Shown piece by piece: positions 4,143 through 23,477 of a DNA stretch of 64,000 bases. The notes under the pieces were generated by a model, which saw only the letters and a list, made by a program, of their open reading frames with translations, was not told the DNA's origin and did no database searches. The stretch is from Leptospiraceae bacterium. Lineage in GTDB: Bacteria; Spirochaetota; Leptospiria; Leptospirales; Leptospiraceae. Made by a program: the position numbers and the translations under genes. The stretch is from NCBI GenBank assembly GCA_022402465.1, contig JAKRSH010000034.1, forward strand, positions 62,001-126,000. Direction: 5' to 3'. Each line of letters starts with the position of its first letter. The first letter of the stretch is position 1.

Positions 4143-5166
4143 TGATCTTAGTGATATATTGAGCAGGAGTTATATCAAAAGAAGGATTCAAAGCCTTAGC
4201 ATCCTTGGGAGCTATGACACCTTCACCAAGAAAACTCCTTCCTTCTGTATTTTTTAGAAAACTTAAATTTGTTACTTCTTTAGGATCTCTCATTTCAATA
4301 TGGATTTCTGATCCTGATTTAATATTAAAATCAAAACTATCCTTAGTTCCCGCAACATAGAAGGGTACATTTGCATCCTTTGCTATTATGGCAAGTCCTC
4401 GAGTTCCTATCTTATTAGCAGTATCACCGTTAGACGCAATTCTGTCACAGCCTACAATTACAGCATCAATTTTTCTATCATTCATAAGCCATGCAGACAT
4501 TCCATCAGTAATGATATAGCATTCTATTCCTTCTTCTTGCATTTCGAAAGCTGTAAGACGAGATCCTTGTAAGTAAGGTCTTGTTTCATCTGCATAGACA
4601 GTCAGTTCGAAGCCAGCATCTCGTAAGCTTCGTATTATACCTAGTGCTGTTCCATGTCCTGCTGTTGCTAGAGAGCCAGTGTTACAATGAGTGAGAATGT
4701 TGAGTTTCATTTGAGATTTTGCAAATAGAGAAAGTGCATTCTGTCCTATTTTTTCATTGGCAAGTCTATCTCTTTCTTTTTCTCCAATGGCAAAATTCTC
4801 ACAGGCTAAAAGAAACTTTGGATAATCCATCTGTTTTGCAATAAATTCTTGTATCTTATATTTGAAATCAAGGATCATGCGTGATAAATTCACGGCAGTG
4901 GGTCGAGATGCTAATAATTTAGCGAACATTTCGTCCACGATCTCTTTCTTCGGAATCAAGTTCAATTTCCCTATTTCCATTACAATTCCAAAGGCTCCTG
5001 AAATTGCTATGGCTGGGGCACCTCGAACGACCATTTCACGAATTGCATAAATGGTAGAATCTAAGTCATCTGCGATATAGTAGGTTTTCTGAGAAGGAAT
5101 CAATCTTTGGTCAAGAAGGTGACATTTAAATTCCTTCCACTGTATGGGTTCAAGTTTAGAGGACAT
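4090..5166 (-). CDS. mtnA: S-methyl-5-thioribose-1-phosphate isomerase
   Basis: MtnA converts 5-methylthioribose-1-phosphate to 5-methylthioribulose-1-phosphate in the methionine salvage pathway. The 358-residue protein has the family length and signatures: EMVVRGAPAIAISGAFG near residue 45, LTHCNTGSLATAGHGTALG around 158 (catalytic Cys in HCNTG), ADETRPYLQGSRLTAFE around 192, and VGCDRIASNGDTANKIGT around 238 (catalytic Asp). It resembles eIF2B alpha-type proteins, but the HCNTG and GCDRI motifs support the isomerase. Upstream is the phasin-like gene in divergent orientation; the 3' end overlaps the DUF1853 gene. Confidence 0.93.
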   Translation of the reverse strand: MSSKLEPIQWKEFKCHLLDQRLIPSQKTYYIADDLDSTIYAIREMVVRGAPAIAISGAFGIVMEIGKLNLIPKKEIVDEMFAKLLASRPTAVNLSRMILDFKYKIQEFIAKQMDYPKFLLACENFAIGEKERDRLANEKIGQNALSLFAKSQMKLNILTHCNTGSLATAGHGTALGIIRSLRDAGFELTVYADETRPYLQGSRLTAFEMQEEGIECYIITDGMSAWLMNDRKIDAVIVGCDRIASNGDTANKIGTRGLAIIAKDANVPFYVAGTKDSFDFNIKSGSEIHIEMRDPKEVTNLSFLKNTEGRSFLGEGVIAPKDAKALNPSFDITPAQYITKIITEEGVWNPGEQKNFGL

Positions 5167-5267
5167 AATACTGAGTGTAAATCAGCTAAGGAAAAGTATA
5201 AAAAAAAACTATCTTGGTTTAAAAAAAGACGTGCAAGGTTTCTTGAGGTACTTAAACTAAGGTCATA

Positions 5268-5284
5268 TTTGTGCGTTGCACAAA
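5268..5284. promoter_or_regulatory. Palindromic operator candidate upstream of the phasin-like gene
   Basis: The perfect inverted repeat TTTGTGC-GTT-GCACAAA (7-base arms, 3-base centre) ends 22 bases before the ATG of the phasin-like gene. Its core TGC-N3-GCA resembles the TGC-rich dyads bound by PhaR-type repressors of polyhydroxyalkanoate granule genes, and a phaR homologue lies in this window at 42809. The link is inference from motif similarity. Confidence 0.45.
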
Positions 5285-5306
5285 AGACGAAAAAGGAGTA
5301 AAAAAA

Positions 5307-5525
5307 ATGGAAAAAGAAATTAAAGACGGTTTGAATTTTGTATTAGGTGCTGTTTCTAAAGTGAAAGAAGAATTTGATGGTGGTTTCCAAGGAATCCAAT
5401 CAAACTTCCAAAGCTTAATTGAAAAAGGTGCACAAGACACTAGCGAGTTATCTGTAAATATCAGAAAATATGCTCAAGAAGGCATCAACTACATTCAAAC
5501 AATTCTACCTAAAGAATCTAAGTAA
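5307..5525 (+). CDS. Small phasin-like protein
   Basis: A 72-residue helical, amphipathic protein without a signal peptide. It resembles the phasin-related small proteins that coat polyhydroxyalkanoate granules: repeated KVKEEFDGGFQGIQSNFQ and IEKGAQDTSELSVNIRKYAQ heptad-like stretches, ending in KESK. The ATG at 5307 is chosen because AAAGGAG lies just upstream; an in-frame upstream start at 5271 would sit inside the palindrome. It has its own intergenic promoter region divergent from mtnA. Its stop overlaps the end of the convergent Cys-rich gene by a few bases. Function is inferred from composition. Confidence 0.6.
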   Translation: MEKEIKDGLNFVLGAVSKVKEEFDGGFQGIQSNFQSLIEKGAQDTSELSVNIRKYAQEGINYIQTILPKESK

Positions 5526-6222
5526 TTAGATTTTCTAACCAGTTGAGGCTAGGTGAGTTCTTCTTAAGGAACTTACTTAGCTTTTTTATTAAACTTTCCG
5601 CAGTCTCTGTTTCCAAAGATACTATTTCAAAAGAAGTCCTTTGGTCGGCTATGCCTCGAAATCTAAGATATTCATGCAGAAAGCCAAGAACAAACTCACG
5701 GTGTTTTCCAAAAAGCCAATCCTTGGGATATTTTAATTTGGTAAATAAAAGTTCTAAGCAAGTTGTGATTTCATGATTTGCTGCAAGTTGTGAGTAATCC
5801 AAAGAATTTGATGATAATTCTTGGAAGACACTTTTCCATTGTGCCGAATCTGGATTTTCTCTATTGCGACATTGGTAGCCTAGACAGATAGAACTTCCAT
5901 AAAATGAGTAATTTTGGCTGAGAGGATTTCCTGTCCTACTTGGATGAATCATACAACCCATCTTATAGCCTCCATCTAAGTAACCAAGAAAGGGGCAATT
6001 GTAGGTGCTTTCATCTTTTTTGGAAATTTGCTTTTCCTTTGCCTCTCTGGATTGTCTGTAAGCTGGAAGGGAATGAGAAATTTTGAAATCAACAGTATTC
6101 TGAAATTCTTCTGTCCTTTGAAAGAGCAGTAGGGTGATTTCTTTTCTTGTTAGATTCAGATTAAAAACTCCACAGCAAGAACCGCAAGAAACTGATCCAT
6201 TATCTGGGTAGCATAAACTCAT
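5518..6222 (-). CDS. Hypothetical Cys-cluster protein
   Basis: A 234-residue protein with an N-terminal CGSCCGVFNL cluster (residues 13-22), plus CPFL near 84, GCMIHPSR near 97 and ICLGYQC near 120. This recalls metal- or Fe-S-binding YkgJ-type proteins (CxxCC plus later Cys), but the remainder is unlike them. There is no signal peptide or membrane segment. It lies 11 bases downstream of the CHAT protease gene on the same strand and could be the fourth gene of that operon. Function not assigned. Confidence 0.6.
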   Translation of the reverse strand: MSLCYPDNGSVSCGSCCGVFNLNLTRKEITLLLFQRTEEFQNTVDFKISHSLPAYRQSREAKEKQISKKDESTYNCPFLGYLDGGYKMGCMIHPSRTGNPLSQNYSFYGSSICLGYQCRNRENPDSAQWKSVFQELSSNSLDYSQLAANHEITTCLELLFTKLKYPKDWLFGKHREFVLGFLHEYLRFRGIADQRTSFEIVSLETETAESLIKKLSKFLKKNSPSLNWLENLIT

Positions 6223-6233
6223 AATTGTGAAAT

Positions 6234-8063
6234 CTAAGTTGTCGTTTTATTCTTATAATCTATGATCTGATAACCTGGAAAGGAAAGAGCAAGTTCTCCT
6301 TTCTCTTGGTTGTCTATGATATTTGCATGGTAGGGTATCATGATTTTTTTCTTTTCATTGTAAACCACAAGATTGCCTCGGAATTTTTCAATTTGTTCTC
6401 CCACATAATCTTGTTTAACAAGGGGAGCTGTAATCAAAGAAGATTGAGGCTTCATACCTCGGAAGAAATAATGGTAGTTCGAATTTTCTGATACAAGGAA
6501 AATATTGATTTTCTCAAATTCTTCTAATTCAACTAAAAGATTTTCATAAAAATATTGGTAAGTGATAAGATAGGAATCACGAGAACTCTCATCAATTTTT
6601 CCTTCTTTGTACATCAAGGTCCAATTTAATAATTTACGTATAACATCATGATTGGAATTTAAAATATCAATGATAGATTCAACATGGGGAGTTATTTTTA
6701 ATTTTTTGAAATCCCAAAGGCAGGCAAGGATCAATTCCCACCACTTAGAAATAGGAATAGAATCGTCTTGGTTCTCTGGAAATTTCTTTCCAAGACTATG
6801 GTATTTATGATCACTGAATACTATAGATCCAAGAACCTTGGAAAATTCCTCAAAGCACTGAATCAATTTCTCCATCTGAAGTTCCGTTGGCTGATTTTCC
6901 TTTTGAGAATTAAGAAAATTTACATAAGATAGTGCAATTGGTGTAGGATAAAAATTCATCACAAAAGATGGATTGATAATCTTTTGGGCTGCTGGATCGT
7001 TCTCCGGATCAAGTAAGATTGTAAAATCAGGATTGCCATAAAGTGAATAGTTAGCCCATGTTAAATCATTTGGGTCATAATTTCGTCTAGCATATTCACG
7101 TGTCATAAATAAAGACTCTCCAACCGTCTTATCGCTGAAGAGGTAAGAATAAAAACGAATTGTAAAATCTATCGTGTTCTGGTTGTCTAAGATTTCCCAA
7201 TTTGTTCCTATGAATGTTTTGATTCCTGACATGAGAAAAGAACCAGCAAAATTATTCATAATATTGGTATTTATACTCTTGCTAACTTGTGTTGAAGAAA
7301 GGCATGAATTGCTAAAGACGATATCTGTAGAAATACCTGAATTCTTAATCTCACGCGCCTTTAGAATTTTGCCATCTGCAAGAAGCCAGCCATTTTCTAA
7401 AGGATCATCAGAAAAGTAAAGATGACCGGAGTAATGGATAATATTTTTGTCCTTGATTAAAGATAAGAGCTTAAGCTTTGTTATATGCTTTCCGCCTATG
7501 AACTCCATTTCTAATCTTGATGAAGATACTTTCTCCGAAAGGATTCTAAAAAGTTCTTCTCCTTCCCTCTGAGCCCATACCAAATCCTCTGTTGGATCTG
7601 CAATAATCAGCATCTTCAGTTTTTCTTTACCGTGGTTAGGCTTCACATGGAAGCCTCCCCTTATTGTTTTTCCTATATGGAACTTATCTGCAAGAAAGCA
7701 ATTTCCATCATGTAAAACTTCCCAAGGAATTAAGGCAAGTCTTGGATCTATATTGAAATGTATACTTTTGTCCGTTGCCAATCTTAGTCTTTCAACAATT
7801 TCAGAAGGAAAAAATTGGTGAAAGAATGTCTGACCCAGAGTCTTGAGCTCACTAAGAATATCTGTATTTAGTATAGTTGATTTGTTGGTTGAGTTCTGAA
7901 CAATGTTTGAAACTCTAACTAAGTTCTCAATCTCAGAAATGTATTCTAAAAGGAGATCATCATCAATGGTAGATTGTAAGTGTGATTCCCCACTGGGCGT
8001 GTTTCCATCTAGGACGTTAAATATGTTAACATTGCCGACTCTATCAATGATCAGGCTGATCAT
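6234..8063 (-). CDS. CHAT-domain (caspase-like) protein
   Basis: A 609-residue soluble protein. The CHAT peptidase domain spans about residues 85-360, starting with the hallmark [12 protein letters not shown] (109-120) and ending in FIGTNWEI (near 284). The predicted catalytic dyad is His214 in IIHYSGH and Cys254 in VFSNSCLSS, 40 residues apart as expected for a clan CD cysteine peptidase. The C-terminal 250 residues are unassigned and may bind a substrate or signal. The gene follows a middle protein (9-base gap) and a sigma factor on the same strand. By analogy with CHAT proteases that cleave partner proteins, the neighbour is a candidate substrate; that is inference. No strong ribosome binding site is visible and the start codon lies in a hairpin. 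Confidence 0.85.
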
Positions 8064-18909: not shown

Positions 18910-19191
18910 TTATTGAATTTCCACTCCATTCCAGAAAGCTATTCTTCCTTCGATAGCCTTTGCTGAAGGTGATTTAATTGATTTATATTCCCATGCAGCG
19001 TTATTGTTTACTTTTCCATCAACTACAATATCATTGTAAGATGCCGTACCTTTCCACGAGCAGACAGATGTCATCGTTGATGGACTTAGGTATTCTAATT
19101 TCACTGATTCTTTAGGGAAGTACATTGCCTTGTCTACTTCAATTGTATCCTCTGATTCTGCGATGACTTTTCCATTCCATATTGCCTTCAT
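18910..19191 (-). CDS. DUF427 domain-containing protein
   Basis: A 93-residue protein matching DUF427 along its whole length: AIWNGKVIAESEDTIEV, YFPKESVKLEYL, TSVCSWKGTASYNDI, AWEYKSIKSPSAKAIEGRIAFW. The family is a small beta-barrel of unknown biochemical function with a conserved CxWKG motif. The start has GGAG about 8 bases upstream. A variant of the shared promoter (ATGTAAGAT-N14-CTAC) lies at 19226-19252 on the same strand. Confidence 0.85.
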   Translation of the reverse strand: MKAIWNGKVIAESEDTIEVDKAMYFPKESVKLEYLSPSTMTSVCSWKGTASYNDIVVDGKVNNNAAWEYKSIKSPSAKAIEGRIAFWNGVEIQ

Positions 19192-19252: not shown

Positions 19253-19333
19253 ATCCTTATTAAAATTATTTCATACTTTCTAATAATCTGCAATCGACAC
19301 CTTTAAGTTTTAAAATTTATATGAATGAATTTT

Positions 19334-19360
19334 TTGTAAGAATATCAATTCGAAATACAC
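19334..19360 (+). promoter_or_regulatory. Predicted ECF promoter of the AhpD-like/YceI/bufferin unit
   Basis: TTGTAAGAA (19334-19342), 14 bases, then ACAC (19357-19360), 20 bases before the ATG at 19381. Its position inside the longer open frame from 19321 is what excludes the earlier ATG as the start. Confidence 0.6.
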
Positions 19361-19380
19361 TTTATTGTAATGGAGAATCA

Positions 19381-19932
19381 ATGAATAAATTCAAGACAAA
19401 GCTAAATCCAGAAAAAGAAGATACAGAGAGTAAATCAGTACAAGAAATATTTATTACTACAAAGAAAAATCTGGGAACTATTCCTAACATGTATAAGAAT
19501 ATGGGCGTTTCTTCAGGTTTGCTAAGTACCTACATACATGGATATACAGAATTGAGGGGAAGCAAGATTTTTAAACCTCACGAAATGGAAGTGATTTTCC
19601 TTACTATAAGCAAGGAGAATGCTTGCGATTATTGTCTAAAGGCTCATAGTTTTATTGGGAGAAAAATGACTAGCGTTCCCGAAGATGTTATTCAAGCGAT
19701 TCACACCAGAGGATCTATTTCTGATCACAAATTAAATGCATTGCATGAATTTGTTGTTCACTATTTGAATTCAAAAGGGTGGTTGCGTCCAGAAGAAGTG
19801 GAGAAATTTACAGATGCGGGCTTTCCAGAGGAAGCTATTCTAGAAATTATATTAGCTATTTCTGTAAAGACAATCAGTAATTATTCGAATCATATTTTTG
19901 ATACAGAAATTGATTCAATGTTTAAAAATTAG
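19381..19932 (+). CDS. AhpD/carboxymuconolactone decarboxylase-like protein
   Basis: A 183-residue protein with the AhpD-type redox centre ENACDYCLKAHSFIGRK (about residues 78-94, CxxC with downstream His). It matches the peroxidase-related CMD branch and probably reduces peroxides or passes electrons to a peroxiredoxin. The ATG at 19381 is chosen: GGAG lies 5 bases upstream and the predicted promoter overlaps the alternative start at 19321. It is the first gene of a plus-strand run, followed 9 bases later by YceI. Confidence 0.8.
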   Translation: MNKFKTKLNPEKEDTESKSVQEIFITTKKNLGTIPNMYKNMGVSSGLLSTYIHGYTELRGSKIFKPHEMEVIFLTISKENACDYCLKAHSFIGRKMTSVPEDVIQAIHTRGSISDHKLNALHEFVVHYLNSKGWLRPEEVEKFTDAGFPEEAILEIILAISVKTISNYSNHIFDTEIDSMFKN

Positions 19933-19941
19933 GAGTGAATG

Positions 19942-20568
19942 ATGAGAACTACAACATATATAAAAAAGATTACACAGGCTATCTCAATAGGATTGTTAGT
20001 TACGGGAGTAAGTTTATCTGCAGATACAACTTACAAAATTGACAAAGAGCATACAAGCTTAGGTTTTGAAATAGACCACTTAATGATTAGCACAGTCACA
20101 GGCAGATTCAAAACCTTCGATGGGGAAATCATTATTAGTGATGATAAGAAGAAGCTATTGTCTATTCAGGGATACGCTTTAGCTAAATCAATCGACACAG
20201 ATAATTCAAAAAGAGATGAGCACCTTAGATCTAAAGATTTTTTTGATGCTCAAAAATTTCCGAAGCTTGAATTCACGATAAAAGAATTAGATATATCTTC
20301 GGGAAGCTCATCTAACGTTAAAGGCAAGCTTACGATACGAGGAATAGCAAAAGAAGTAAAAGTAAAGATTAAATTTAAAGGCACCGTAACGGATCCTTGG
20401 GGTGCTGAAAAACTTGCCATTGATGCTGAAAGCACAATCAATCGTAAAGATTTTGGTTTAACTTGGAACGAAGCATTGGAGTCTGGTGGAGTTATGGTTG
20501 GTGAAGATGTTAAAATCGTAATCAAGGTGGAAGCTGATCTTGTGGAAACCAAGAACTCAAAGAAATAA
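19942..20568 (+). CDS. YceI family exported protein
   Basis: About 208 residues: a signal peptide ending near SLSADT, then the YceI lipocalin-like beta-barrel (YKIDKEHTSLGFEIDHLMISTVTGRFKTFDG, DEHLRSKDFFDAQKFPKLEF, KLTIRGIAKEVKV). The family binds isoprenoid or amphiphilic molecules in the periplasm and is induced by acid and other stresses. Two adjacent ATGs exist (19939 and 19942); AGGAG is better spaced for the second. It sits between the AhpD-like gene (9 bases) and the bufferin-like gene (37 bases), so all three are probably one transcript. Confidence 0.85.
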   Translation: MRTTTYIKKITQAISIGLLVTGVSLSADTTYKIDKEHTSLGFEIDHLMISTVTGRFKTFDGEIIISDDKKKLLSIQGYALAKSIDTDNSKRDEHLRSKDFFDAQKFPKLEFTIKELDISSGSSSNVKGKLTIRGIAKEVKVKIKFKGTVTDPWGAEKLAIDAESTINRKDFGLTWNEALESGGVMVGEDVKIVIKVEADLVETKNSKK

Positions 20569-20605: not shown

Positions 20606-20899
20606 ATGGAGACAAAAAATATAATTCTCATGGGGGCATTACTTGCCATGACTCAAATGGCTGGATGTGCTTCAGCGCAATCTACGGAAGCCACTAATCA
20701 AGCTGGAAAATGCTATGGAGTGGCAGGCCCTAAGCAAGGTGATTGCGGAGGAAAGGATCCAAAAACAGGAAAAACATGGAGCTGTGCTGGTCAGAATCCA
20801 ACAGCAGATCTTGGCTGGAAGAAAATGACTAAAGAAGAGTGTGATGCGGCTGGTAAACACAATTCAGCAACAACTAAAAACTTTGTTGCCAACAAATAA
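20606..20899 (+). CDS. DUF2282 (BufA1 bufferin)-like lipoprotein
   Basis: A 97-residue protein with a lipoprotein signal (ALLAMTQMAGC, Cys21) and then the four-Cys pattern of DUF2282: KCYGVAGPKQGDCGG (Cys36, Cys47), WSCAGQ (Cys60), MTKEECDAAG (Cys79). DUF2282 proteins (bufferins) are substrates of MNIO (DUF692) enzymes that modify the core Cys, and they buffer copper in the periplasm. Here the predicted product is lipid-anchored instead of soluble. Start: AAGGA upstream of the ATG at 20606. Directly downstream is a broken DUF692 gene, so any modification would need an enzyme from elsewhere. Assignment is by motif recognition. Confidence 0.65.
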   Translation: METKNIILMGALLAMTQMAGCASAQSTEATNQAGKCYGVAGPKQGDCGGKDPKTGKTWSCAGQNPTADLGWKKMTKEECDAAGKHNSATTKNFVANK

Positions 20900-20915
20900 A
20901 AAAGATAATTCTTCT

Positions 20916-21293
20916 TCGGTTGGTCTTTCTTTCTGAGAGCCCAATCGAGTAGAATTTTTAGGTAATAAATTAGATATAGATTTTATCGAAATTATTACTG
21001 AAAATTTTTCATACAATCAGGTTCCTGATAGGGACTTTATTGCAAGCTTCAGTGAATCTTATCCACTCCTTTTGCATAGTTTAACTATGAATATGGGATG
21101 ATTGGATGATTTGGAGATTCCCTATTTTAATAAAATAAACTCACTATTTAAAGAAACCAATCCATTATTCATAACAGATCATTTGTGTATGACCAGGCAC
21201 AATGGAAAAAGCTCTTTCGACTTACTTCCTATTCCTTATACTAAGAATATGATTAATCATCTTCAAGAGAGATATTTACGATTACAAGATAGA
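20916..21293 (+). pseudogene. Broken MNIO/DUF692 (BufB-like) gene, N-terminal half
   Basis: One continuous frame shows clear DUF692 features interrupted by two TGA codons (20934-20936 and 21099-21101). Pieces in order: VGLSF, then DIDFIEIITENF, then FSESYPLLLHSLTMNMG, the second stop, then FKETNPLFITDHLCM and DLLPIPYT, ending in LRLQDR at a TGA near 21293. The C-terminal half of the roughly 270-residue TIM barrel is missing. MNIO enzymes use iron to convert Cys of bufferin precursors to heterocycles. The first stop could be a CGA-to-TGA change. The neighbouring DUF2282 gene supports the assignment. Confidence 0.75.
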
Positions 21294-21503
21294 TGAAATG
21301 GACGAAGTGAATTTTTATTTTGATGCTCTTGATACATCGCTTAGATTATTTAAAATATGGCTATGATGTCAGAACAAAAAATACCCTTGAGACAATTTTT
21401 CTAAAAACTAGAAATATAATGGGAGTTAATATAAGAAATATTTCTGGTAAAGAATATTTTTTCATGGAATGTAGAAACTTGTATATGTACTGAACCTCCG
21501 AAA
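21294..21503 (+). pseudogene. Decayed coding remnant, unrecognised
   Basis: Two coding-like segments in different frames: KIDEMDEVNFYFDALDTS ending at a stop near 21365, and then VRTKNTLETIFLKTRNIM through FFMECRNLYMY to a TGA near 21494. They do not continue DUF692 in any way I can see and were not assigned to a family. The frame change near 21360 suggests a small indel. Confidence 0.4.
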
Positions 21504-21526: not shown

Positions 21527-22050
21527 ATGAATCAAAATTCAAAAATTTTAATCTTGAATAGAGAAGGTCATTCATTAGTAGGTGCGGCGGTAGTTTTTGC
21601 AGCTAAGCATTTGCCAGATGTAAAAGCTATCCTTACAATTAGAGTCCCTTCGGATCCTAGGCATGAAGAACATCTACTAAAGGATAGTATAAACGATATT
21701 GAAATAAGTGGATGTGCTATTGTCGATATCGGAGGAAGAAATTTCACTATCAAAAAACAATTCTTGGAAGATATTCGAAGTCATAGTCTTCCTGAAGCTT
21801 TGAAAGAATTGAAAAAGCCTCTCTTGGTTTTGCATTCCCCCAAGATGTAATTGTAGGAATCGATAATGCTCGTAAGATATTTGAATCTGCTTACCATTCC
21901 AAGAGCTTTGTATCTTTGGATGGAGCCAATCATTTGCTATCTGATTCGCAAGATTCGCAATTCGTAGGAAATATGATAGTCTCTTGGATAACAAGATATC
22001 TCCCAATTGAGGAAAAAAACCTTAGACTGAAAGATCAAGAAATCAAGTGA
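21527..22050 (+). pseudogene. Frameshifted, truncated alpha/beta hydrolase (OsmC-linked type)
   Basis: From an ATG at 21527 the frame encodes the middle of an alpha/beta hydrolase of the kind fused to OsmC: GHSLVGAAVVFAAKHLPDVK (nucleophile motif, with Val in place of the second Gly), IRVPSDPRHEEHLL, VDIGGRNFTIKKQFLEDI, LLVLHSP. At the C5 run 21837-21841 the frame is lost. One added C restores QDVIVGIDNARKIF, then KSFVSLDGANHLLS and VSWITRYLP, ending at 22050. The N-terminal strand region and the OsmC domain are absent. It is probably a former member of the redox-stress cluster. Confidence 0.7.
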
Positions 22051-22081: not shown

Positions 22082-22360
22082 TCAAATTTTACCATGTGCT
22101 TTACTTTCTAAATTATGTAGAATGCGAACTTTCATATCTGTCGGCATATGTGGCGATCCGGAAAGTTTTCCTTCCTTATCTGGAAGAGTAATGATTGAGT
22201 GGAAGCCTTTGCACATTTCGCACATATAGAGATGGAGTTTCAACTGGAATTTTTTTATCATTCCAATAGAAATCTGGTCTCGTTGGAAGGAAAGAAGTTC
22301 TGAGACTTCATTGCAGGAGAGCATCCATTTCCCTTTTCCTTTTGTGCAGACATTAGACAT
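22082..22360 (-). CDS. Zinc-binding (ZAS-type) anti-sigma factor
   Basis: A 92-residue cytoplasmic protein with the zinc anti-sigma pattern Cys16, His43, Cys47, Cys50 (HLYMCEMC). It probably binds and silences the ECF sigma factor encoded immediately upstream. Its start overlaps the sigma gene by 8 bases, the usual translational coupling, with AGGA upstream. The Cys/His cluster makes it a candidate thiol- or metal-sensitive switch, as in RsrA- and ChrR-like factors. No transmembrane segment is present, so the signal would be cytoplasmic. Confidence 0.75.
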   Translation of the reverse strand: MSNVCTKGKGKWMLSCNEVSELLSFQRDQISIGMIKKFQLKLHLYMCEMCKGFHSIITLPDKEGKLSGSPHMPTDMKVRILHNLESKAHGKI

Positions 22361-22895
22361 TTGAAATTCCTTTTCCTTCCATGCAGATCTTCAATTGAAT
22401 CCGTATTCTATGTAATAATACATGTAGATTAGACGTAGAGATATCCAATTTCTTACAAATTTCAGAAGAATTCATTTGTTCAAATTCTCTCATTTTATAA
22501 AGAATTCTATGTTGGTTAGGTAAAGTATCTATACAGTATAACAAAGTATCCCATATTAAGGAATTTTCTAAGTTTTCATAAATAGATTTGCGTGAATCTG
22601 GTTGATTATTGATCCAGAAGCCAGAATCATCAAAAGCATTTAACTTAATTTCAGATTCAGATATTACTCTAGAATTCTTATATTTTTTTCTATAGATTTC
22701 ATAAATTTTATTCTTCAAAATCCCGATTATCCATGTGCTAGGGCTGGAGTCTCCTCGGTATTTCTCCCAGGATTGGATTGCAACAAGGAATGTATCTTGA
22801 ATCACGTCCTCAATTTCTTCAGGATCACTTAAACGTGAACGAGCGTAATTGTATAGAAGATCAGAATATTCATTGAATAATCTTGTTATATCCAT
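22353..22895 (-). CDS. ECF sigma factor
   Basis: An ECF-family factor of 180 residues with region 2 (LFNEYSDLLYNYARSRL, EEIEDVIQDTFLVAIQSWEKY, STWIIGILKNKIYEIYRK) and region 4 (LPNQHRILYKMREFEQMNSSEICKKLDISTSNLHVLLHRIRIQL). Two adjacent ATGs exist (22898, 22895); GAGGA is better spaced for the second. ECF factors paired with zinc anti-sigma proteins control DUF2282/DUF692 operons in other bacteria (for example the Neisseria sigma/MseR pair), so this is the likely controller of the AhpD-YceI-bufferin unit and the other TTGTAAGAA promoters. This link is inferred. Confidence 0.9.
   Translation of the reverse strand: MDITRLFNEYSDLLYNYARSRLSDPEEIEDVIQDTFLVAIQSWEKYRGDSSPSTWIIGILKNKIYEIYRKKYKNSRVISESEIKLNAFDDSGFWINNQPDSRKSIYENLENSLIWDTLLYCIDTLPNQHRILYKMREFEQMNSSEICKKLDISTSNLHVLLHRIRIQLKICMEGKGISNV
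22432..22458 (-). promoter_or_regulatory. Promoter-like motif inside the sigma gene, ahead of the anti-sigma gene
   Basis: Minus-strand TTGTAAGAA (22450-22458), 14 bases, then CGTC (22432-22435), about 70 bases before the anti-sigma start. The exact 9-mer and spacing match the regulon motif, with a classic ECF CGTC second box. It also encodes part of region 4 (CKKLDIS), so coincidence is possible. Confidence 0.35.
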
Positions 22896-23477
22896 CATGT
22901 CCTCATAATGTAGAAAGATTAGAAATACAATTTGTTATGAAATTAAACTTTAACGTTAGCCATGGATTGACTTTCATTTAATTTTAAATCTCAATGTAGA
23001 AGTATGAATCAATCTGGTTTTTAATTGAAAGAAGTTCATTTTATAGTTTTGAATTTTTAAGCAGTGTTAGAGTTATTTTGAATTTTAGCTAAGACTTTAT
23101 GATTTCTATTTTAATAAATACTTTGCAATTAGTCAAATAAAAAATTTGTGATAAGTTTATATGCCTGCACCAGCTCTTCCTTGGCTTAGTAAAATGATAT
23201 TTAGTTTAGATTTTATAATCATTTTCTCATTTCCACTTTAGTTGCACCATTCGATAAGGATGACTGGGATGGTCTTTTGGTAGAATCAAATTATTTAGGT
23301 CTTAAGAATATAGAGACTATGGAAAATTTTTAAATCGATACTAATTTATATCCATTCTTTTCTTATCTGATAACTTTCATTTTACGATATTCTTGAACAT
23401 GAATTAGAGTTGATAAGAAAAAAAGTAGCAAGGTGCTTACAGTAAGTTTTGGAAGGATAGTTAGTAATTTAGAAAAA
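22896..23477. other. 0.58-kb stretch without intact genes
   Basis: No intact gene is visible. A coding-like scrap in one frame at about 23206-23333 (LVAPFDKDDWDGLLVESNYL followed by GLKNIETMENF and a stop) looks like the end of a lost gene but was not assigned. No good match to the TTGTAAGAA motif lies in front of the sigma gene, so its own promoter is unclear. The stretch ends at the tRNA-Ala gene. Confidence 0.4.

Follow-up and report, generated by a model that had tools for sequence, protein, structure and literature searches.

Two described families of bufferin precursors bear on the locus analysed here, Buf1 (DUF2282, PF10048) and Buf2 (BufA2, NF050166; the 'Cys-Lys' captophorins). According to the 2025 survey of these systems (PMC12452194), modification falls on the central cysteine pair of Buf1 while the outer two cysteines are joined in a disulphide, Buf2 has six or twelve cysteines, and genomes with Buf2 in which no MNIO was found number 0 of 864 (Table 3). 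The same text proposes that the signal-peptide part may take part in recognition, and it already describes stand-alone precursors, for which modification at a distance, or none, has been proposed; it leaves open which role the stand-alone genes play and whether several bufferins can be served by a single MNIO pair. MNIO products can include lipoprotein precursors, as has been shown for DAG-RiPPs such as lipo-NedABC (PMC12636315), whose NedA, an EGKCG-type oxazolin, has a MNIO and a partner of its own.

The locus examined here lies in the window, by which we mean the whole stretch of 64,000 nucleotides that was analysed, from a genome of 3.99 Mb that is the sole representative of its genus in our comparison. 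The bufA gene (20606..20899, forward strand) is an unbroken open frame of 97 residues, as the initial annotation had stated, and encodes a bufferin-like precursor with a Sec-like N-terminus and four further cysteines (Cys36, Cys47, Cys60 and Cys79) beyond Cys21. The lipobox claimed by the same annotation was recovered by eye as a possible MAGC motif at Cys21, and the precursor is probably lipid-anchored there, as predicted from this motif. The stretch reads QMAGC, with Tyr at the Gln position in the second copy that this genome carries on its contig C34, and we take this Gln, four residues ahead of the Cys, to be a misfit to the strict lipobox pattern.

The four-cysteine pattern seen by the initial annotation is present in the protein, but the membership in DUF2282 that had been attached to it did not stand, because PF10048 gave only 11.1 bits (E 0.42; curated cut-off 22.4) and had no match in the whole genome at E 0.001. 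The BufA2 profile NF050166 scored 29.1 bits (E 8.2e-7) on the window precursor and 29.3 bits on the C34 precursor, both below its curated cut-off of 60. The controls for these scores were two plasmid Buf1 proteins, with 85.0 and 85.3 bits for PF10048 and 19-23 bits for BufA2, and six six-cysteine Buf2 proteins (three from plasmids and three from related genomes), with 72.5-105.6 bits for NF050166 and no PF10048 match; the two sets of controls are thus well separated. By score it is in neither described family, being intermediate and closer to Buf2. In pairwise comparison outside its own genome it is matched best by Buf2 from within its phylum (45.7 bits at most), followed by proteobacterial Buf2 and Buf1, and the tree also places Buf2 nearest; tblastn against plasmids gave no match.

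The profile of these precursors, run on a sample of 392 genomes of the phylum, yielded 28 matches in 20 genomes, namely the two of the host genome, 23 strong relatives, and three weak matches outside these 23 (in G016, G023 and G029). All 23 strong relatives carry six core cysteines, including two of N-x-Cys-Lys type (one motif reads Cys-Thr in L039), whereas the window and C34 precursors both have four, in place of the six or twelve conserved in Buf2, lack both Cys-Lys-type cysteines, and have their second and third cysteines separated by a short insert. Likeness to Buf2 is nevertheless seen in the C-terminal block CAGQN...GW..MTKEEC of the window precursor, in the lipobox-type N-termini (by eye) of 12 of 16 relatives from a related family of the order, and in the acidic residue that follows the ERD motif of the MNIO, which is Glu in the C34 enzyme and acidic in 4/4 Buf2-adjacent MNIOs of the related order. 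The substrates thus lost the Cys-Lys motif, whereas the enzyme kept its acidic residue. The four cysteines that are left have their counterparts in Buf1, and the first motif (KCYGV-type) and the 11 residues between the first and second cysteines are as in the Buf1 controls, although the later spacings differ. On these sequence features we regard the two precursors as a four-cysteine form between Buf1 and Buf2.

This form was sought more widely. In the family of the host organism 1 of 8 genomes gave a match, the one being the host genome itself, and pattern scans of genome contigs with the C34 precursor and with both precursors returned 48 and 90 matches, respectively, with no confirmed relative, so that these scans found no named organism with the four-cysteine form. 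The weak matches of G016 and G023 resemble ordinary Buf1 adjoining a MNIO. In G029 the weak match (L073, G029:C17:33857-34066) is to a short protein of Buf2-like type that has four cysteines and ends in a His/Gly-rich tail; no MNIO was found in this related genome, which is 78% complete, so that it may be a counter-example to the presence of a MNIO in every bufferin genome. Neither a four-cysteine Buf2 nor a bufferin next to a fossil MNIO was met in the accessible text of the open-licence PMC literature.

Downstream of bufA, the frame that the initial annotation had identified as DUF692 was confirmed far above chance (PF05114, 89.5 bits, E 3.4e-25, cut-off 25), in agreement with one half of its suggested profile search, the other half of which (DUF2282) fell below cut-off. 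This pseudo-bufB (20919..21296, forward strand) holds the N-terminal half of a MNIO, covers profile positions 2-127 of 263, and shares 43% identity with the C34 BufB along 128 residues. It is interrupted by three in-frame TGA codons (20934, 21099 and 21294) rather than the two first reported. Most of the C-terminal half is absent, as had been noted, but a frameshifted piece survives at 21277..21324 (forward strand), a short match of 16 residues to residues 151-166 of the intact BufB, and the initial annotation, right in setting a dead enzyme beside an intact precursor, had missed a pseudo-bufC fragment at 21329..21457 (forward strand) that aligns with the intact BufC at its residues 51-93 (44% identity over 43 residues, tblastn E 1.1e-5). 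Large parts of both genes are gone between and beyond these fragments, the stretch with LLEN, LDLNN, YHLAG, DAHD and ERD is missing from the window MNIO, and with three stops there is no full-length frame with catalytic residues. Differences between the bufB remnant and the live copy fall on the three codon positions in the proportions 56, 38 and 75 over 126 codons, and this excess at third positions suggests that selection acted on the gene during a large part of its history and that its death came late. A repeat scan around the locus gave no clear insertion scar.

The remaining neighbourhood consists of genes of other families. Directly upstream of bufA, separated by a gap of 37 bases, lies a YceI-family gene (19939..20568, forward strand; PF04264, E 1.1e-43) with which bufA is probably co-transcribed, preceded by an AhpD-like (carboxymuconolactone decarboxylase/peroxidase-related) gene (19321..19932, forward strand; TIGR01926, E 9.5e-11, below its cut-off) whose true start may be, by eye, the ATG at 19381 behind GGAG; transcription of the window bufA behind both genes is likely. 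A DUF427 gene (18910..19191, reverse strand; PF04248, E 8.3e-28) has a 60% identical paralogue directly upstream of bufA in the C34 cluster. Directly behind the dead bufBC lies a broken alpha/beta hydrolase/OsmC-type gene (21527..22050, forward strand), recognised by comparison with annotated proteins and with its end set by eye, of which the part 21527-21850 is about 50% identical to annotated bifunctional alpha/beta hydrolase/OsmC proteins; the region 21527-22050 resembles a local gene graveyard. Beyond it are an anti-sigma-like protein (22082..22360, reverse strand; NF052368, E 7e-10, 38.6 bits, cut-off 50) and an ECF sigma factor (22353..22898, reverse strand; PF04542, E 6.5e-18; TIGR02937, 100.8 bits, cut-off 42.9). 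In three loci of relatives (L036 4756-5938, L038 3552-4743 and L040 2168-3237) Buf2-type clusters also adjoin an ECF sigma gene and a NrsF anti-sigma gene (PF06532, 49.6-58.5 bits). A promoter and terminator scan gave nothing clearly above shuffles, and the upstream regions of the window and C34 loci share short AT-rich matches only.

The search for another DUF692 gene that the initial annotation had proposed found one intact copy, on C34, a separate contig of the same genome, in an uninterrupted cluster of DUF427, bufA, bufB and bufC. This BufB has no stops, scores about 286 bits with PF05114 (286.1-286.3; cut-off 25) and, among five MNIO models, scores best with the bufferin maturase NF050167 (276.6 bits, below the cut-off of 310). 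Its alignment keeps LHG, SDH, LLEN, LDLNN, HLAG, DAHD and ERD, which we take to be the MNIO ligand motifs (in part after PMC13419390). The bufC-like gene lies directly behind bufB, whose TGA stop overlaps the bufC start, and its product scores 23.1 bits with PF09836 (DUF2063) as a protein and 25.2 bits in the genome search, below the cut-off of 27.2. The genetic link with a MNIO and a DUF2063-type partner, by which bufferins in the wide sense are recognised, is thus found in the C34 cluster and, as fossils, in the window. Beyond these two loci no other PF05114 or PF09836 match was found across the genome at E 0.001, nor was a third bufferin. The presence of a DUF427 paralogue beside both clusters indicates that the duplicated unit was probably DUF427, bufA, bufB and bufC. 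AlphaFold models built from single sequences were of poor quality for BufC (mean pLDDT 40.2) and for BufA (42.9) and were set aside. Beside the intact cluster, L003 4801-7046 encodes a histidine-specific methyltransferase (PF10017, 303.5 bits) and a FGE-sulfatase/DinB protein, presumably the expected ergothioneine synthesis pair (EgtD and EgtB).

A MNIO adjoins 11 of the 23 strong relatives and is not adjoining in the other 12 (ten of the same order and two of another family of the class), some of which may be contig effects since some assemblies are fragmented; G025, however, carries its bufferin and its fused MNIO on different contigs, each well away from the ends, and the bufferin of G026 also lies in the interior of its contig. 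All 16 genomes holding the 23 strong bufferins encode a MNIO. The stretches scanned around the fused MNIOs of G024-G027, about 1.5 kb on each side for three of them, showed no cysteine-rich precursor, and the other MNIO of G025 adjoins a precursor with six EGKCG/EGKC-type repeats (L050 4722-5093), an oxazolin-type cluster in the same order. A natural fusion of MNIO and DUF2063 partner was demonstrated by scan for L037 alone (4805-6568, 587 aa; PF05114 326.8 bits, PF09836 45.9 bits), and similar long frames of about 600 aa occur in L028, L029, L034 and L053. The gene order in L036 6088-8249 is bufB, bufA and bufC, followed by a second bufferin, which deviates from the bufABC order described as strictly conserved in PMC12452194.

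Taking these results together, we consider it somewhat probable (about 0.57) that the locus is a former bufferin operon whose maturation genes are dead and whose surviving precursor is matured in trans by the BufB and BufC of C34. The window precursor would be a Buf2-derived, four-cysteine bufferin, probably lipid-anchored, bound by the C34 BufBC in the cytoplasm; BufBC would oxidise cysteines to thiooxazoles, by analogy with Buf1 those of the central pair, Cys47 and Cys60, and the modified precursor would then be exported and lipidated at Cys21, to buffer copper at the envelope. We infer the trans-modification, the target cysteines and the lipidation, as well as copper as the metal, the last of these from the family. 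Among the three options offered by the initial annotation, the trans-acting MNIO has gained most, given the intact second MNIO, the BufC-like protein and the sister precursor in the genome. The reading is favoured because the C34 bufB and bufC-like genes are intact, the cores of the two precursors are near-identical and the window precursor, unlike the dead bufB with its drifted GC content, shows no relaxation, and also because 12 of the 23 relatives are MNIO-distant, yet every genome concerned encodes a MNIO. Counted against it are the signal-peptide part, of which only 16 of 33 residues are identical between the two precursors, the scores of the C34 BufC and BufB below the DUF2063 and NF050167 cut-offs, and the weak bufferin-like match of G029, in whose genome (78% complete) no MNIO was found.

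A less probable alternative, which we hold to be rather unlikely, is that the window precursor is now unmodified, a plain cysteine lipoprotein with a metal or thiol/redox role, and that the loss of the local bufBC followed a change of function. The death of its own bufBC, its place behind the AhpD-like and YceI genes, and the divergence of its signal-peptide part from the copy beside the live enzyme all agree with this. The absence of both Cys-Lys-type cysteines might be added, but the same two cysteines were lost in the C34 copy, so that their loss is no mark of an unmodified protein. Moreover, while the precursors are 71% identical overall, the cysteine region (residues 34-85) is almost the same in both, with 46 of 52 residues identical and 6 different (dN 0.07), synonymous change between the two being saturated.

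Decay in progress, in which the whole operon is dying and bufA would merely have been spared so far, had also been offered by the initial annotation and is improbable in the light of the fates of the two copies. The adjoining bufB and bufC are broken, as is the hydrolase gene, and three stops in 127 bufB codons scale to only about two in bufA, so that the intact frame alone is no proof; a gene of 97 codons can stay unbroken for a while by chance, and a single genome gives no date for the death of the enzyme. However, in the precursor tree, in which the window and C34 copies are sisters (100/100), the end branch is 0 for the window copy and 0.39 for C34, and in the MNIO tree (24 rows, five MNIO loci, L086-L090, having been left out for failing the motif filter), in which they are again sisters (100/99), it is 0.83 for the dead gene and 0.59 for the live one. 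Four of the six core differences could be polarised and all four changed on the C34 side, none on the window side. Across the 29 differing columns of the whole precursor the relatives side with the window copy in 11, with the C34 copy in 7 and with neither in 11, and against the 23 relatives, which are not independent of one another, the window copy has changed less than the C34 copy in 18 comparisons, more in 2 and equally in 3. GC content was kept at 44% in bufA, as opposed to 30.5% in the dead bufB and 38% in the corresponding part of the live gene. Branch lengths, polarised core changes and GC, together with the open frame and the four core cysteines retained, indicate that the local enzyme died and that the precursor, as judged from its sequence, shows no relaxation.

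An assembly error, or recoding with TGA read as an amino acid, is scarcely credible as the explanation of the broken MNIO: all three in-frame stops are indeed TGA, but two of them align with Arg and Gly rather than Trp or Cys in the live enzyme, the intact bufB itself terminates at TGA, and the loss of most of the C-terminal half and of most of bufC, with the frame shifted, rules out assembly error as the whole cause.

Returning to maturation in trans, the locus resembles the stand-alone precursors of the survey (PMC12452194) in having no functional MNIO adjoining and a MNIO elsewhere in the genome. It is new with respect to them in that the cause is visible, namely the loss of a local enzyme whose bufB and bufC fossils lie downstream, and in that a matched sister substrate sits beside a live enzyme. 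With the NedA of lipo-NedABC (PMC12636315) it would share a MNIO substrate with a lipoprotein signal, although lipidation and modification have been established for NedA and are predicted for the window precursor. More tentatively, the two precursors may represent a third kind of bufferin, derived from Buf2, in which the Cys-Lys cysteines were lost before the duplication, a diverged BufBC acts on the central pair, and this one BufBC serves soluble and lipid-anchored precursors at two loci, splitting copper buffering between periplasm and membrane.

The genome thus offers a clean pair: the cores are near-identical, the local enzyme is alive at one locus and dead at the other, and one precursor is probably lipidated and the other not. 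An intact bufA beside dead bufBC, together with a complete sister cluster, constitutes a natural test of whether one enzyme serves separate targets, and the absence of the Cys-Lys-type cysteines from both precursors puts to the test, in addition, which cysteines are required by a Buf2-type MNIO.
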